This document shows, piece by piece, positions 2,805 through 11,621 of a stretch of DNA of 64,000 nucleotides. The DNA is from Thiomargarita sp. (lineage in GTDB: Bacteria; Pseudomonadota; Gammaproteobacteria; Beggiatoales; Beggiatoaceae). A program made the translations under genes and the position numbers. The DNA lies in the NCBI GenBank assembly GCA_020721045.1, contig DYNN01000006.1:1-64000 (forward strand), read 5' to 3'. Under the pieces are notes generated by a model that was not told the origin of the DNA, did not search any database, and saw only the letters and a list, made by a program, of their open reading frames with translations. How positions within the stretch are numbered: the first letter of the stretch is position 1; each line of letters starts with the position of its first letter.

Positions 2805-5313
2805 AATCATCAGATTTGGCAAAACGAAGTTGAAAAATACCGGCTTTGGTCATTTTCAATTGAATTGCGCCTGTCTGTGAAGTGAGTAAAGTGAAAATTT
2901 GACGGTTTTTATAACGTTTTAGTACATCTGGTTTGGGAAAATTAAATCTATTTTTATAACCAACAGAAAATAAAGCGATTTCTGGATTCACTTGTTCAAT
3001 AAAAGTTTCACTAGAAGAAGTTAAACTGCCATGATGTGGCACGACTAAGATTTGAGCAGCTAATTGATTACCAATGGATTTAACTAACCATTCTTCCGTA
3101 ATTTGTTCAATATCGCCGGGTAATAAGATGGCATAATTACCTGTACTGATTTTCAGCACGCAAGAGCGATTATTGCCTTTGGGTAGATAGCGTTGCGAAG
3201 GATTGAGCATGTCAAAAGCCACACCATCTATTTCCCAATGTTGACCTAGATGACATGATTGAAAAGAATAATTGGGCAAAATATGATTTAATTCATGCGG
3301 ATCGTTAGTAAAAATCTTGCTCACTGGCATCGCCGCCACAATACTGTTTAATCCGCCGCTATGATCACTATCTACATGGCTAACAATGATACGATCAATT
3401 TTTTTAATCCCTTGTGCGTTTAAAAATGGCAAAATCACGCTTTTACCACTGTCAGAATGTTCGCTAAATTTAATGCCAGTATCGTAAAGCAAAGTGTGAT
3501 GTTGGGTGCGTATAACAGCGGAAAGTCCTTGACCTACATCTAATAAAGTAAATTGAATTCCTCCATGTTGGATGGGTTGTGTATGGTTTGTGGTGAAAAA
3601 TAAAGGGCATAACCAAATGAAACCTAACCATTTATTGGGAAATCCACGCGGCAACAGTAAAATAAGTACACCCATTGTTGCAATAATCACAGTTAATAAA
3701 GACGGCTTTTCCCATTCCCACACGCTTAGTTGATCAAGCCAAACTAAATATGCCCATAATTTTTCCATCATGTAGGCAGTTATCGGGAGCACAAAATTGC
3801 TAATTGTAGGAAAAGTCAAAATCGTTAGGGTGCTAAATAATAAAAAAGGTAATACAATCAAGCTAACAATTGGGATAGCAATGGTATTAGCAAAAATTGT
3901 CGTGAGTGAAATATAGCCAAATAGCATGAGTAAAACTGGCAATAATGCGAGTGAAATAGCAATTTGCGCTTTGCTGAACGTTTTTAACCATATTCTTAAT
4001 CTAAAAGAGAGTTTTAGATATAAAGATAATAGAAATAATTTTATAATTTTTAATAAGTTAGTTGATTGTTGTTGTGGTTTAAGACGATTAGCAGTTAGAA
4101 CATTTTTTAAAATTAAAGAACGTTCAGGTATTTCCTTAAAATAATGTGCTTCTAATTGAAAAAAAGTATCTTGGCTAAATTGTTTTCTATAGTTAATGAA
4201 AGATAAATATTTGAAAATAAAGCGATTGTCTGTATATATCGTACGACGCCCAACAAATATGTATCCCAAAATAGCGACAGCTCCGAAAGATAACCAAAAT
4301 CCTTGCGTTTGTATTGATAAAGGGTCCCAAATGAGAACAAAAAGTAATGCTAAAGATAAGGCTTGAGAAACAGCTACATGACGTTTTAATAAGAGTGTGC
4401 AGACAAATACTGTGGTCATGATAAATGCGCGTTGGGTGGGAACTGAAAATCCAGATAATAGTGCGTAAATGAACGCAATTAGTAAGCTGAAAATAGCTGC
4501 ACTGTGTGGTGCGACAATTCTTAAGGCAACATAACTGGGATACAGGCGTAATTTACGAAATAGTCGAAAAATAAACAAACTACCCATGACAACAAGCCCA
4601 ATGTGCAGACCAGAAATTGCCATGAGATGTACTGTGCCAGTGTGCTGTAAAATTTGATATTGTTGAGAAGAAATCGCGCGTTGCTGACCTATTGCTAAGG
4701 CGACAAGCAGATGAGTAATTTCATTATCTGGTAATGCTTGATAAATTGCCGAAGATAGACGATATCGCCAATTATCAATATGCCAATCACTGGGTTCTTG
4801 TAATAGTTTGGCTGCTGGAAGTTCACGTATGTAACCAACGGCAGATATGCGTTTGACCTGTGCAGAATATTTGGGAACGCCAAAATTTGACGAGGAATGT
4901 GGTTTTTTTAATCGTACTGTGAATTGCCAACGTTGTCCTGGGCGCAATTCATGCGTTGTTTTATACCAAGTTAAATATATTTTTCCTGTAAAATCATATT
5001 GTTTATCTTTGAGTTGCTCAGGGATAAAATGAAATTGCAATTTACGCTCGACTTGTTGCGGTAAATCAACAATATGACCTACAATAATAATGTCTTGGCT
5101 TTCTAGCGCTGTAGAAAAAGTTTGTGCTAAGATAGAATTGATGTGCCATAAAGTCCATATATATCCAATCGATATCGCCAATAAATAACGGAAAAAAGAA
5201 TATTTAATACTGATGACGGCGAAACCAAGGATAATACCAAGATTAATCGGTAAATAAGGAAGATAATGACACAGTAAAATACCTGATAAAAAAGCAAGTG
5301 CCGTTAAACGCAT
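2803..5313 (-). CDS. comEC: ComEC/Rec2-type DNA uptake channel
   Basis: An inner-membrane protein that carries single-stranded DNA into the cytoplasm during natural transformation. Order of parts: N-terminal helices with a DUF4131-type soluble domain (about residues 1-180), the Competence domain with many membrane helices (about 190-560, including the HLMAISGLHIGLV motif), and a C-terminal metallo-beta-lactamase-fold domain (about 580-836). The last carries LLDVGQGLSAVI, the metal motif HVDSDHSGG (about 645-653) and VPHHGS. At 836 residues it is slightly longer than most ComEC proteins, with an extra lysine/phenylalanine-rich linker around residues 365-440 between membrane segments. The divergent DUF2062 gene (43 bp away) is a frequent neighbour of comEC in Gammaproteobacteria. 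No other competence gene is in view. Confidence 0.93.
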   Translation of the reverse strand: MRLTALAFLSGILLCHYLPYLPINLGIILGFAVISIKYSFFRYLLAISIGYIWTLWHINSILAQTFSTALESQDIIIVGHIVDLPQQVERKLQFHFIPEQLKDKQYDFTGKIYLTWYKTTHELRPGQRWQFTVRLKKPHSSSNFGVPKYSAQVKRISAVGYIRELPAAKLLQEPSDWHIDNWRYRLSSAIYQALPDNEITHLLVALAIGQQRAISSQQYQILQHTGTVHLMAISGLHIGLVVMGSLFIFRLFRKLRLYPSYVALRIVAPHSAAIFSLLIAFIYALLSGFSVPTQRAFIMTTVFVCTLLLKRHVAVSQALSLALLFVLIWDPLSIQTQGFWLSFGAVAILGYIFVGRRTIYTDNRFIFKYLSFINYRKQFSQDTFFQLEAHYFKEIPERSLILKNVLTANRLKPQQQSTNLLKIIKLFLLSLYLKLSFRLRIWLKTFSKAQIAISLALLPVLLMLFGYISLTTIFANTIAIPIVSLIVLPFLLFSTLTILTFPTISNFVLPITAYMMEKLWAYLVWLDQLSVWEWEKPSLLTVIIATMGVLILLLPRGFPNKWLGFIWLCPLFFTTNHTQPIQHGGIQFTLLDVGQGLSAVIRTQHHTLLYDTGIKFSEHSDSGKSVILPFLNAQGIKKIDRIIVSHVDSDHSGGLNSIVAAMPVSKIFTNDPHELNHILPNYSFQSCHLGQHWEIDGVAFDMLNPSQRYLPKGNNRSCVLKISTGNYAILLPGDIEQITEEWLVKSIGNQLAAQILVVPHHGSLTSSSETFIEQVNPEIALFSVGYKNRFNFPKPDVLKRYKNRQIFTLLTSQTGAIQLKMTKAGIFQLRFAKSDD

Positions 5314-5356
5314 TTTTTATAAAATAAACAATTTTTAAACGTTTTTTACAATAAAT

Positions 5357-5914
5357 ATGGCTAAACAATTCTTTAAAAAATGGCTACCCCATCCAACGAC
5401 AGTAAAAAATAACAAAAATTTGCAATTTCTTGGTAATCTATTACACGATCCCAATTTATGGCATTTAAATAAACGATCGGTCTCAGGAGGTATGGCAGTC
5501 GGTTTATTTATGGCATTTATACCTGTGCCAATGCAGATGTTATTTGCAGCGATACTTGCTATTTTTTTTCGAGTCAATTTAGCATTGTCGGTCAGTTTAG
5601 TTTGGATTACCAATCCGTTCACAATGCCCCCTGTCTTTTACTTTTCTTATAAAATCGGTGCTTTTTTATTAGGCATAACCCCACAACATCTTGATGCCAG
5701 TTTCACCTTAGAATGGCTACTCAAGGTACTTGATCAAATTTGGCAACCTTTCCTATTAGGTTGTTTCACTTTAAGTTGTTTAAGTGCAACAGTAGGTTAC
5801 TTTCTTGTTAGGGCATTGTGGCGTTCTCAAATTAAGCGTTTATGGAATGAACGTCGAAGCAAACGACTAACCGCATTAAACAAATTGAAAAAACATAATT
5901 TATCGGTTGAATAG
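5357..5914 (+). CDS. DUF2062 domain membrane protein
   Basis: 185 residues with the DUF2062 signature: a short cytoplasmic N-terminus, then SVSGGMAVGLFMAFIPVPMQ, a helix rich in small residues, the WITNPFTMPPVFYFSYKIG motif, and a final membrane helix (about 130-155) followed by a basic tail. The family is widespread in Proteobacteria; its function is unknown. The gene is transcribed away from comEC with 43 bp between starts, and a strong inverted repeat follows its stop codon. The ATG at 5357 is the first in frame and gives the usual length. Confidence 0.85.
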   Translation: MAKQFFKKWLPHPTTVKNNKNLQFLGNLLHDPNLWHLNKRSVSGGMAVGLFMAFIPVPMQMLFAAILAIFFRVNLALSVSLVWITNPFTMPPVFYFSYKIGAFLLGITPQHLDASFTLEWLLKVLDQIWQPFLLGCFTLSCLSATVGYFLVRALWRSQIKRLWNERRSKRLTALNKLKKHNLSVE

Positions 5915-5919
5915 TATTA

Positions 5920-5948
5920 AGTTCCCACTCAAACAAACAGTGGGAACT
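5920..5948. terminator. Bidirectional terminator, DUF2062 / purA
   Basis: A perfect 10-bp inverted repeat, AGTTCCCACT (5920-5929) and AGTGGGAACT (5939-5948), with a 9-nt A/C loop lies in the 42-bp gap between convergent genes. T-tracts are weak on both sides, so efficiency is uncertain, but position and stem strength favour this role. Confidence 0.6.
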
Positions 5949-5956
5949 GCCATTTG

Positions 5957-7273
<1,317 letters not shown>

Positions 7274-8468: not shown

Positions 8469-8654
8469 CTAATGTATCCAATAAAGTAGTGTGACCCCAG
8501 AAATCATACTTAAAAAACCCAGTATACGCAGATTTTTATCATTCATAGCAATTAATTTTTGTAAATTGCTACGCATGATACTTGGGCTTAAAAAGGGCAT
8601 AATTCCCTCAATGACCATGACTAATGCGAGGGCTATTAATAATTCGTCCCACAT
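8469..8654 (-). CDS. DUF2065 small membrane protein
   Basis: A 61-residue protein with two predicted membrane helices (about 5-22 and 43-59), matching the DUF2065 family (YjeT-like), whose usual place is between hflC and hisZ or purA. The function is unknown. AGGAA lies about 10 nt upstream of the ATG. It is 50 bp downstream of the nuclease-like gene and 10 bp upstream of hisZ. In related genomes hflC is normally the direct upstream neighbour, so the two genes at 8705-10677 are an insertion into a conserved operon. Confidence 0.85.
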   Translation of the reverse strand: MWDELLIALALVMVIEGIMPFLSPSIMRSNLQKLIAMNDKNLRILGFLSMISGVTLLYWIH

Positions 8655-8704
8655 ATTCTTTTTATTCCTGACAGTACTTTAAAAAATGTGAAGAAAGTCA
8701 TTTT

Positions 8705-9352
8705 TTAATACCATTTTTTACAATAATTATCAAAATTTCTACAACTTTTCAATTGCGATTTTTGAATATTATGTAGTGCGCTAGTGGGTATCGCATCCAC
8801 TTCATCTTTTAAGCACTTTAATAAAATACTTTCCACTTGATGAAATTTGGTTAAGGCATCTAATATTGACATAAAGCTTTCAATTCCATCCTCTTCTAAA
8901 TCAGTGGCAATATCAGTGACAATGATGAAATTTTTCTTAGTTTGGTTATAATATTGGTGTTCTTCGTTAGTAGTACTTGGTTTTTTACACAGTACAGTTC
9001 TCAATATATGTTCACTATCTGCGATTTTTCTTGATAGATCAAAATTTTTAATACGTTCCTGAATTTGTGACTCAGTACTATTTGAATTTCTTTTGATGAA
9101 TTCTTTAAATCCTTTAAATTCAATAAAATCAATTTGCTCTGATTCTGGCAATATTTTTAATGCATCGCAAGATTTTTGGGGAGAAGTTTTATTTTCTGCA
9201 CAACAACGTTCTTTTGTCTGATCAAAATCAATGATTTCAACTTCAGAGTGAAGGCAACATACACCATGTAAATTTTTTACTTTTTTTAGTTTAAAATACT
9301 CTATCTCTATACCAAATTGTAAAAATTTGCTTAAAAAATCTTTTACATTCAT
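8705..9352 (-). CDS. Uncharacterised protein with a possible PD-(D/E)XK nuclease core
   Basis: I do not recognise a named family. The 215-residue protein has a motif like those of restriction-type nucleases: SCDALKI (Asp63), a short linker, then IDFIEFKG (Glu78, Lys80), giving a D-x14-E-x-K arrangement on two predicted beta strands. An upstream acidic segment, SEVEIIDFD (36-44), could supply the helix-borne Glu. Cys pairs (Cys32-Cys33, Cys50-Cys51) and Cys62 may be structural. Later segments are helical, with KKNFIIVTDIATDLEEDG forming a possible strand. The start codon overlaps the ATPase stop by 4 bp (ATGA), so the two are almost certainly translated together. ATPase-nuclease pairs of this layout are common in anti-phage systems, but function here is inference. 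Confidence 0.6.
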   Translation of the reverse strand: MNVKDFLSKFLQFGIEIEYFKLKKVKNLHGVCCLHSEVEIIDFDQTKERCCAENKTSPQKSCDALKILPESEQIDFIEFKGFKEFIKRNSNSTESQIQERIKNFDLSRKIADSEHILRTVLCKKPSTTNEEHQYYNQTKKNFIIVTDIATDLEEDGIESFMSILDALTKFHQVESILLKCLKDEVDAIPTSALHNIQKSQLKSCRNFDNYCKKWY

Positions 9353-10677
9353 ACTAATTCTCGTAATGGTTTAGATAATTTAGCAAAAATTTGATTAAGT
9401 TCGTCAGTGACTTCTGAAATAAGTGAGCCGTCATTTTCTGTTTGTTCTGCTAAATAAAAATGAGTTTGTGATCTAATCTCACTATTTTCACTAAGAACTT
9501 TAAGTGCTTGAATAAGATAAGGACTGTGAGAAGTCAATAATACAGGAATTCCTTGTTCCACCAATTTAATAATAATTTTGGCATATTCAACTTGCCAAGT
9601 GGGATGCAAGTGAGTTTCTGGTTCATCTATAATCAAGGGACGACGTTTACCTAAAACATTAGCTTTTAACAACAATTGTAGTGTCCCAAACGCTTTAACC
9701 CCTGATGCTGCATTGATAGGGCGATAAGTAATCTCTTCTGTTTTATAAAATAAAAAATCTCTTTCATCGGAGGAAAAATTAAAACCAATGCCATTAACCA
9801 CTTCCGAGATTTGCTGTTCTAATCCTTGAAATTCTGTTAAATCAAACAACGGTGAATATTGCGCATTTTCTATTTTATTTATCAAATCTTTTATATGAAG
9901 TGCTACTTTAGGTCTTGATGTACCCATATTATCAGTGTCAAGCAAGGTATCCGCGTAATTGATTAAACGATAGAATTGTAAATAAATAGGACTTTCAATA
10001 AAGGTCGCATCTTCAAAGAATAAATCATCGGTAAAACGCAATGCATTTACTTTATTAGATTGTATCCCTATTTCTACAATCTCATGTTCTCCTTCAAAAA
10101 CAGATACTCGAGATAATAACGAAAGATTTCTCTTTGGGGTAATCTCAGAATAAAATTCAGAAAAAAACGTTTTTTGTAATGCTCTCTTGATTATTTCTTC
10201 TTTGTTTTCTTCTTGAAATAAAATTGTTTCTAATTTATCAAGATGATGCAAGATTTCAGTTTTTGTCTTATCACTATTAGAACTATGTTCTATATTTGCT
10301 GAAGCTAAAAGCGATAATAACTTTTGTTTTATGTCATTAAATTTTTTTTCAGTTGTTCCAAATAAATCAGCTTGCAATGAATTAATCAGTGTTCTAGGAT
10401 AAAATTCGTCTACTGTCAAATGTCTAATATGAATATAAGGTAAGTTAGAAAGCTCTTTTCTAAGTAAAAAATAGATCATCTCAGCAATTTTTCTAATTTT
10501 AATTTCTCTATTTTCTTCTAAATCTTGCTCATAACGGCTTAAGGCTTTAATAAGCGCGAACCATAAGCGTCCTACAGTACTTTTGCCTGTATCATTATCA
10601 CCTGCAATAACCGTTAAACCGTCCAAAGAGACTTCTGCACGTTCGATCATGCCCAGATTTTCAATTTTTAATTGCAT
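9349..10677 (-). CDS. ABC-type AAA_15/AAA_21 (OLD/SMC-like) ATPase
   Basis: 442 residues with a complete ABC ATPase set: Walker A GDNDTGKST (26-34), signature-like NAASGVKAFG (322-331), Walker B PLIIDEPETHLHP (347-359) and switch His384 in LTSHSPYL. The 250 or so residues between Walker A and the signature are mostly helical and charged, as in the inserted arms of OLD-, RloC- or PARIS-type ATPases. There is no C-terminal TOPRIM domain, so any nuclease activity would come from the overlapping partner gene. The pair is inserted between hflC and DUF2065 on the same strand, with a long hairpin (10691-10729) separating it from hflC. Defence or stress function is inferred from architecture only. 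Confidence 0.8.
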   Translation of the reverse strand: MQLKIENLGMIERAEVSLDGLTVIAGDNDTGKSTVGRLWFALIKALSRYEQDLEENREIKIRKIAEMIYFLLRKELSNLPYIHIRHLTVDEFYPRTLINSLQADLFGTTEKKFNDIKQKLLSLLASANIEHSSNSDKTKTEILHHLDKLETILFQEENKEEIIKRALQKTFFSEFYSEITPKRNLSLLSRVSVFEGEHEIVEIGIQSNKVNALRFTDDLFFEDATFIESPIYLQFYRLINYADTLLDTDNMGTSRPKVALHIKDLINKIENAQYSPLFDLTEFQGLEQQISEVVNGIGFNFSSDERDFLFYKTEEITYRPINAASGVKAFGTLQLLLKANVLGKRRPLIIDEPETHLHPTWQVEYAKIIIKLVEQGIPVLLTSHSPYLIQALKVLSENSEIRSQTHFYLAEQTENDGSLISEVTDELNQIFAKLSKPLRELV

Positions 10678-10690
10678 ATTTCCAAATAAC

Positions 10691-10729
10691 AGAGTGAATA
10701 AACAATATTAAAACATTGTCTATCACTCT
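10691..10729 (-). terminator. Long hairpin between hflC and the ATPase cassette
   Basis: Arms AGAGTGAATAAACAAT (10691-10706) and ATTGTCTATCACTCT (10715-10729) pair around an 8-nt loop with one bulged base; the only mismatch becomes a U-G wobble in minus-strand RNA. No good U-run follows (GUUAUUU). It could be a weak terminator or attenuator ending the hfl transcript, an mRNA-stabilising stem, or part of a regulatory site for the cassette. Confidence 0.45.
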
Positions 10730-10742
10730 AATATCCTAGATT

Positions 10743-11621
10743 TTACTCAGTAGATTGAGGTAGTTGGTTTTTGAAATAGCGGAAGAAATCTGAATCTGGT
10801 TGCAATAACAAAATATCGCTTTTATCGCTAAATGATTTCTTATAAGCATTTAAAGAACGATAAAGTTCGTAAAATCCAATATCTTTCTGAAAAGCGTCCG
10901 CATACAATTGGGAAGCAGTTGCATCGCCTAAACCACGTATAATTTCGGCTTCTCTTTCTGCCACCGCAACAATTTCTACACTTTCACGATCGGCTTCTGC
11001 ACGAATTCTTTGAGCATCGGCTTTACCACGTTGTCGCCAATCTTCTGCCACTTGCTCACGTTCGGTGCGCATTCTTTTATAAACTGCTGCACTGACTTCT
11101 TTGGGTAATTCAATCTTTTTGATTCGCACATCCACAATTTGAATACCAAATTCTTTTGCCCGTTCACTGGCTTGCTTGGTAATATAATCCATAATCACTG
11201 CACGATCGCCAGATACAACTTCTTTAATATCACGAATACCAAATTGACTGCGTAAACCATCAGCAACCACTTCACTTAATCGATTGCTAGCACGATCTTC
11301 GTTACCGCCCATAGTGGTGTAATATTGCCTCACATCCTCAATGCGCCATTTGACGAAAGAATCAACGATTAAGTTCTTCTTTTCTTTGGTTAAATATTTC
11401 TCAGATTTTGAATTAACAGTTTGAATTCGTTTATCAAATTTATAAACTCTTTCCACTATCGGTACTTTAAAATGTATCCCCGGTTTATAATCAGCATGGA
11501 TTACTTCACCTAAACGCAGTTTTAAGGCAACTTCTGTCTCTGAAACGGTAAATAGAGACATTAACGAAATAATCGTACTAATAATCAATAAGATCAGAAC
11601 AAGCAATTTACTCATTTCCAT
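10743..11621 (-). CDS. hflC: HflC, SPFH-family modulator of FtsH
   Basis: A membrane-anchored SPFH/prohibitin-type protein that with HflK forms a large periplasmic cage around the FtsH protease and tempers its action. It has 292 residues, with one N-terminal membrane helix (about 5-25), then the band-7 domain (VSETEVALKLRLGEV, DKRIQTVNSKSEKYLTKEKK, LVDSFVKWRI) and a C-terminal helical region with the KADAQRIRAEADRE heptad stretch. The start overlaps the hflK stop by one base (TAATG); a second ATG two codons later is possible. The C-terminus is followed by the insertion described at 8705-10677. Confidence 0.95.
   Translation of the reverse strand: MEMSKLLVLILLIISTIISLMSLFTVSETEVALKLRLGEVIHADYKPGIHFKVPIVERVYKFDKRIQTVNSKSEKYLTKEKKNLIVDSFVKWRIEDVRQYYTTMGGNEDRASNRLSEVVADGLRSQFGIRDIKEVVSGDRAVIMDYITKQASERAKEFGIQIVDVRIKKIELPKEVSAAVYKRMRTEREQVAEDWRQRGKADAQRIRAEADRESVEIVAVAEREAEIIRGLGDATASQLYADAFQKDIGFYELYRSLNAYKKSFSDKSDILLLQPDSDFFRYFKNQLPQSTE

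Follow-up and report, generated by a model that had tools for sequence, protein, structure and literature searches.

Two overlapping genes, one for an ATPase and one for a small protein, lie between hflC and the DUF2065 gene in the Thiomargarita sp. window, i.e. the whole 64,000-nucleotide stretch of DNA that was analysed (Table 1). The operon that they occupy continues with hisZ, then purA, 3' of the DUF2065 gene. The distance from hflC to DUF2065 is 2,088 bp in the window versus -1 to 557 bp in the 31 family genomes in which the two genes are adjacent; in a few other relatives in this survey, DUF2065 is missing beside hflC or the contig breaks off. The pair is also missing from the junction in six relatives that carry it elsewhere (G010, G012, G020, G024, G029, and G038). 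Because the junction is closed in the 31 relatives and empty in the six carriers, the pair is an insertion, and not part of the ancestral operon. The window insertion was searched for a transposase and for target-site duplications, and no convincing repeat emerged from the many short A+T-rich chance pairs. No defence gene adjoins the window copy.

Table 1. Features at the interrupted hflC-DUF2065 junction of the window
Feature	Coordinates	Strand	Remarks
ATPase gene, 442 aa	9349..10677	(-)	OLD-type ABC ATPase, probable sensor/switch; Walker A K32, signature-like N322-G331, Walker B D351/E352, switch H384; without TOPRIM
Small gene, 215 aa	8705..9352	(-)	Probable PD-(D/E)XK nuclease, effector; 19 homologues share D63, E78, K80, K109, S113, K140 without exception; C32-C33 conserved
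ATGA stop/start overlap, 4 nt	9349..9352	(-)	Translational coupling inferred; few-base overlap in most homologues
hflC	10743..11621	(-)	Host gene upstream of insertion
DUF2065 gene	8469..8654	(-)	Host gene downstream of insertion
RNA hairpin between hflC and ATPase gene	10681..10740 (core stem 10691-10730)	(-)	Strong stem, single copy in genome, no T run after

The hairpin upstream of the ATPase gene (-23.2 kcal/mol, z-score -6.3) has as candidate roles those of an operator, an attenuator or an mRNA stability element; a genome-wide repeat was ruled out by its copy number. Two other features were observed in passing. Further along the window a single 7,455-aa open reading frame (17489-39856, forward strand), starting with a ERLEDRILLDAN (LEPR-XLL-like) motif, probably encodes a giant protein, either secreted or at the surface. 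The region downstream of hflC-DUF2065 in a relative (L093, G033:C575, 307-2626) has an AAA-type ATPase gene that is split and a gene probably for a DNA cytosine methyltransferase, i.e. other defence-like cargo is present near the same hfl operon.

The ATPase matches AAA_15 (Pfam, 2e-16) and has a Walker A motif, GDNDTGKS, a signature-like motif, NAASGVKAFG, and a Walker B motif, LIIDEPETHLHP; the key residues of all three, and the switch His, are invariant in 18 homologues. TOPRIM was matched in neither protein of the pair (Pfam, PADLOC). The nearest folds to a structure model of the ATPase (pLDDT 84) are PtuA of Septu (the best), the SMC and Rad50 heads, and OLD; the protein belongs with the OLD-type ABC ATPases. 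The best PADLOC model is PD-T4-4_A (5e-27, best stretch residues 264-395), which gives 93 bits for the window ATPase versus 541 bits for a PDC-M47 ATPase elsewhere in the genome; the HEC-02 ATPase model also matches (5e-24).

By comparison with profile libraries, the 215-aa protein has no credible match in Pfam, NCBIfam, or PADLOC, including PD-T4-4_B (no match at E <= 10), the HEC-02B models, and any HNH domain, which was matched in neither protein and from which the small-protein motif differs. A weak HEC-02B match (0.0017) was obtained for one distant homologue, the small protein of L009, and a Tox-REase-9 match was rejected as sub-threshold, found with one homologue, and spanning just 17 residues. 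The residues K60, S61, D63, K66, D75, F76, E78, K80, G81, F104, K109, S113, and K140 are nevertheless invariant in 19 homologues whose identity to the window protein is 31-39%, and C32-C33 is conserved in at least 90% of them. In an AlphaFold2 model built with the homologue alignment (pLDDT 88, pTM 0.84), a strand at 64-68 starts beside D63, a strand at 73-80 has E78 and K80, and a helix at 106-123 (K109 and S113) is followed by a strand at 139-146 (K140). This strand/helix order is that expected of a PD-(D/E)XK core. Foldseek returned no significant match of the model to solved (PDB) or viral (BFVD) structures, so the assignment as a probable PD-(D/E)XK nuclease is based on conservation of the motif, on the order of the predicted elements, and on the homology that profiles show to sister families sharing it.

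The preliminary description had reported that two overlapping genes break the hflC-DUF2065 order, that the ATPase has the Walker A, signature, Walker B, and switch His motifs without TOPRIM, and that the small protein has a D63-E78-x-K80 pattern; these points all stand. The paired cysteines that it also listed are conserved at C32-C33 and not at C49-C50. Of the checks that it proposed, the PADLOC search gave matches for the ATPase and none for the nuclease, and the structure prediction was confident, with a compatible order of elements, but brought no significant fold match.

The sister families are those of ATPase-led pairs on mobile elements and in phages. Searching with the ATPase by tblastn gave full-length relatives on one plasmid each of Acinetobacter (L034) and Klebsiella (L035, mobilizable) and in a phage record (L036), with further relatives on viral contigs (L067-L072), and a small protein follows the ATPase directly in L034-L036 and L067-L071. 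Comparison of profiles by hhalign relates the ATPases of the window family and the sister pairs at 5e-71, and the nucleases at 4.6e-8 with D63, E78, and K80 aligned, clear nuclease homology appearing only with a six-sequence sister profile; with a three-sequence profile the match was weak (E 0.0008, probability 24%). Single-sequence comparisons of the nuclease profile with the Klebsiella plasmid protein and with PDC-M47B indicated no homology, tblastn of the small protein against plasmids and phages gave no matches, and neither did a nuclease-profile scan of viral contigs. Two identical viral contigs (L067/L068, 4001-5888) encode an intact ATPase and a small protein with KSCC that has N in place of the catalytic D and has lost E-x-K; as judged from its sequence, this protein may be a dead nuclease or a decoy.

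The distribution of the pair is patchy. Homologues of the small protein are present in 9/43 family genomes, the window genome included, in 8/311 Methylococcales genomes, and in 2/349 genomes from the order of one Bacteroidota carrier, with none in the other class genomes (0/368, class sample of 369) or in the other genomes of a phylum sample of 398. Among the genome contigs scanned, the carriers were Thiotrichaceae, Methylococcales, Bacteroidota, and one Bacillus. In homologous loci across three phyla the two genes are side by side, the ATPase gene directly upstream of the small gene wherever the contig allows, usually with an overlap of a few bases and with short gaps in its place in L027, L104, and L123. 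Pairwise distances for the ATPases and nucleases are correlated (Mantel r 0.86, 0/2000 permutations). A tree in which the window ATPase groups with the copies of its own family is rejected (p-AU 0.026), a modest rejection of a group that was named after the first tree was seen. Some copies are decayed, with stops in L002/L105 and L004, an ATPase gene broken by transposases in L122, and a remnant in L124. Vertical fixation in the relatives had been named beforehand as the result that would speak against a defence cassette; the finding was carriage in the 9/43 family genomes, with the others at other sites. Overall, the evidence supports a mobile, patchy ATPase and PD-(D/E)XK-like module with defence associations, most likely acquired horizontally by the window genome.

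The positions taken up by the other copies are varied. Gene names at these loci were read from translated sequence, apart from those of the profile-tested defence neighbours and the PDC-M47 pair. Copies lie between ftsB and ispD in L023 and L026, the L124 remnant is at the same junction, and the IS-broken copy of L122 lies after ftsB. In L122 (G1084:C2, 5124-9256), where the cassette follows eno-ftsB, the ATPase gene is interrupted by two transposase-bearing insertions of opposite orientation, and the nuclease frame is open. Separately, a truncated frame (MKINKIEIQNFKGFEHNTF) 3' of the L023 cassette (8660-8730) looks like the beginning of a further ATPase gene, a sequence trace of possible cargo turnover at ftsB-ispD. 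One copy (L024) has an FGGY-kinase gene (xylB-like) on one side and a xylose-isomerase-like gene on the other; further copies follow thrC (L031) and lspA (L020), and another lies between atpA and atpG of the ATP synthase operon (L104, G014:C145, 2156-10848). Most of the copies examined are outside defence islands. Defence-related neighbours were found for some, e.g. an AbiL-like ATPase, a RloB-like gene, and a DNA methyltransferase after atpD in L104, an SLFN-type helicase and a MazG-like gene in L027, and a type IIG restriction enzyme gene upstream of the cassette in L014, with a similar gene end upstream in L017. The 3' end of the L014 type IIG gene is repeated, in degraded form, just downstream of the cassette (6500-6670 and 8640-8760), as if the cassette came in with a duplication.

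The broken conserved junctions do show that the pair inserts in operons. Gene order at ftsB-ispD, atpA-atpG, and xylB-xylA is conserved; the counts of empty sites are for hflC-DUF2065 alone. Enrichment of same-strand neighbours was dropped as proof that the cassette rides in operons, since the background in carrier loci is already 80% same-strand and orientation alone therefore proves nothing. Such seats inside housekeeping operons (hflC-DUF2065, ftsB-ispD, atpA-atpG, and xylB-xylA) are the unusual feature of the window family.

The architecture itself, an OLD-ABC ATPase followed by a PD-(D/E)XK nuclease, was thought at first to match no known system; this did not hold, as it has been described for WonAB (PMC12137116) and for OLD-ABC plus REase dyads (PMC12839542), and PD-T4-4 is likewise of this kind. 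WonAB, from Vibrio, is, like the window pair, a two-gene operon of an OLD-type ABC ATPase without TOPRIM and then a small PD-(D/E)XK protein, patchy in bacteria. The comparison covered architecture and key-residue spacing as described in PMC12137116, e.g. the spacing from the Walker B Glu to the switch His is 32 in the window ATPase and 33 in WonA. By contrast with WonAB, the window nuclease has a CC motif, and its seat is a housekeeping operon rather than a prophage. The dyads (an ABC-ATPase survey as cited in PMC12137116; PMC12839542) share the architecture and ATPase class and are, on anatomy, the umbrella kind of the window pair, which has OLD-type ABC ATPase motifs, no TOPRIM, and an adjacent small protein with conserved PD-(D/E)XK residues; the available text on the dyads does not name the nuclease subfamily of the window.

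The PADLOC systems PD-T4-4 / PDC-M47 are also pairs of an ATPase and a small nuclease, but PD-T4-4_B and PDC-M47B do not match the window nuclease. A second ATPase-nuclease pair, directly after a radA-like gene, was observed in the same genome (L106, G000:C139:8000-20000, 5039-7107), with PDC-M47A/B matches of 5.6e-237 and 1.2e-67; its ATPase is only distantly like that of the window, and its nuclease is without detectable likeness. The occurrence of this PD-T4-4-like pair at another locus of the genome shows that the window pair belongs to a separate family. The candidate system HEC-02 is similarly matched by its ATPase model and not by its nuclease models. Septu (PtuAB) resembles the window pair in the ATPase fold, but its nuclease is HNH (PMC10952713), and PARIS, Gabija, and OLD have an OLD-family ATPase in common with it, but with TOPRIM nucleases. 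The best reading of these comparisons is that the window pair would be of the known OLD-ABC ATPase and PD-(D/E)XK nuclease kind, of the abortive-infection type, with a distinct CC-motif nuclease subfamily. What is new is that this subfamily is without a Pfam, NCBIfam, or PADLOC 2.0 model, although later descriptions of such pairs may exist.

Previous work on WonAB has shown abortive infection requiring the WonA ATPase residues and WonB K71, with inhibition of translation and without degradation of the chromosome (PMC12137116); around BREX, pairs of an OLD-ABC ATPase with a PD-(D/E)XK or other nuclease have been described as suicidal effectors that serve as a backup (PMC12839542). Because of the analogy with these pairs, we think it probable that the window pair is a horizontally acquired anti-phage module in which an ATPase switches a nuclease to bring about abortive infection. 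As in WonAB and pairs like it, a dimer of the ATPase would hold the nuclease and, on sensing an infection cue, would change conformation with ATP so freeing the nuclease to cut nucleic acid, which could be host tRNA/rRNA or DNA; growth would then stop before phage release. Transcription would probably come largely from the hfl operon by read-through. The defence reading is backed by gene anatomy, conserved active-site residues, co-inheritance, patchiness, plasmid/prophage pairs, and the defence neighbours of some copies. The absence of a defence gene beside the window copy, the lack of a Foldseek match, the silence of the PADLOC nuclease models (PD-T4-4_B and HEC-02B), and the location of most copies outside defence islands count against it. 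Of the initial proposal of an anti-phage ATPase-nuclease pair, the mobility, patchiness, and defence associations are borne out; the nuclease model is confident and compatible with the fold but matches no solved structure significantly.

PD-(D/E)XK enzymes are mostly DNases. The same pair might thus restrict incoming DNA directly, the cell surviving, with the ATPase as a sensor of DNA ends or structures like the SMC and Rad50 heads that, besides PtuA, are among its fold neighbours; some copies adjoin restriction-modification genes. We regard this as unlikely: without a methylase partner, discrimination of self from non-self is left unexplained, and WonAB spares the chromosome and inhibits translation (PMC12137116).

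The overlap of the genes, their linkage in homologous loci, the housekeeping-operon seats, and the existence of related plasmid pairs would also suit a selfish addiction (toxin-antitoxin) module, in which the ATPase restrains the nuclease and the benefit is maintenance inside essential operons. This is appreciably less likely still, given that the ATPase-to-nuclease order and a large active ATPase are unlike usual antitoxins, that strong addiction should hinder decay of the kind in L002/L105, L004, L122, and L124, and that WonA is needed for toxicity and does not neutralise it (PMC12137116).

It may be, alternatively, that the 215-aa protein is a Cys-pair binding partner, not a nuclease, its D/E-x-K pattern being coincidental, as the lack of a curated family or significant fold match and the L067/L068 proteins, which keep CC without D and E-x-K, could suggest. 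The invariance of S-x-D...E-x-K in the 19 homologues, its alignment in the sister families, and the fit of the strand/helix order to the PD-(D/E)XK core make this rather improbable. That the pair serves the function of HflKC/FtsH or Hfq as a housekeeping factor peculiar to the lineage, with no part in defence, as its hfq-hflX-hflKC-purA operon seat in the window genome might imply, is scarcely credible with the site empty in 31 relatives, other copies in the ATP synthase, xylose, ftsB-ispD, and further operons, and homologues on plasmids and prophages.

With regard to the preferred reading, an ATPase-switched abortive-infection module, a more elaborate version can be envisaged, though it is very doubtful, in which an immune-cassette family settles in essential operons and borrows their expression, the CC motif gives control apart from catalysis, and phages carry a dead version (L067/L068) as a decoy. 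The analysis adds a nuclease subfamily unlisted in PADLOC 2.0 to a growing class of ABC-ATPase sensors with small nucleases. Such modules can sit in housekeeping operons, out of reach of searches centred on defence islands, and more of them might come to light by simply screening the neighbourhoods of conserved operons whose gene order is broken.
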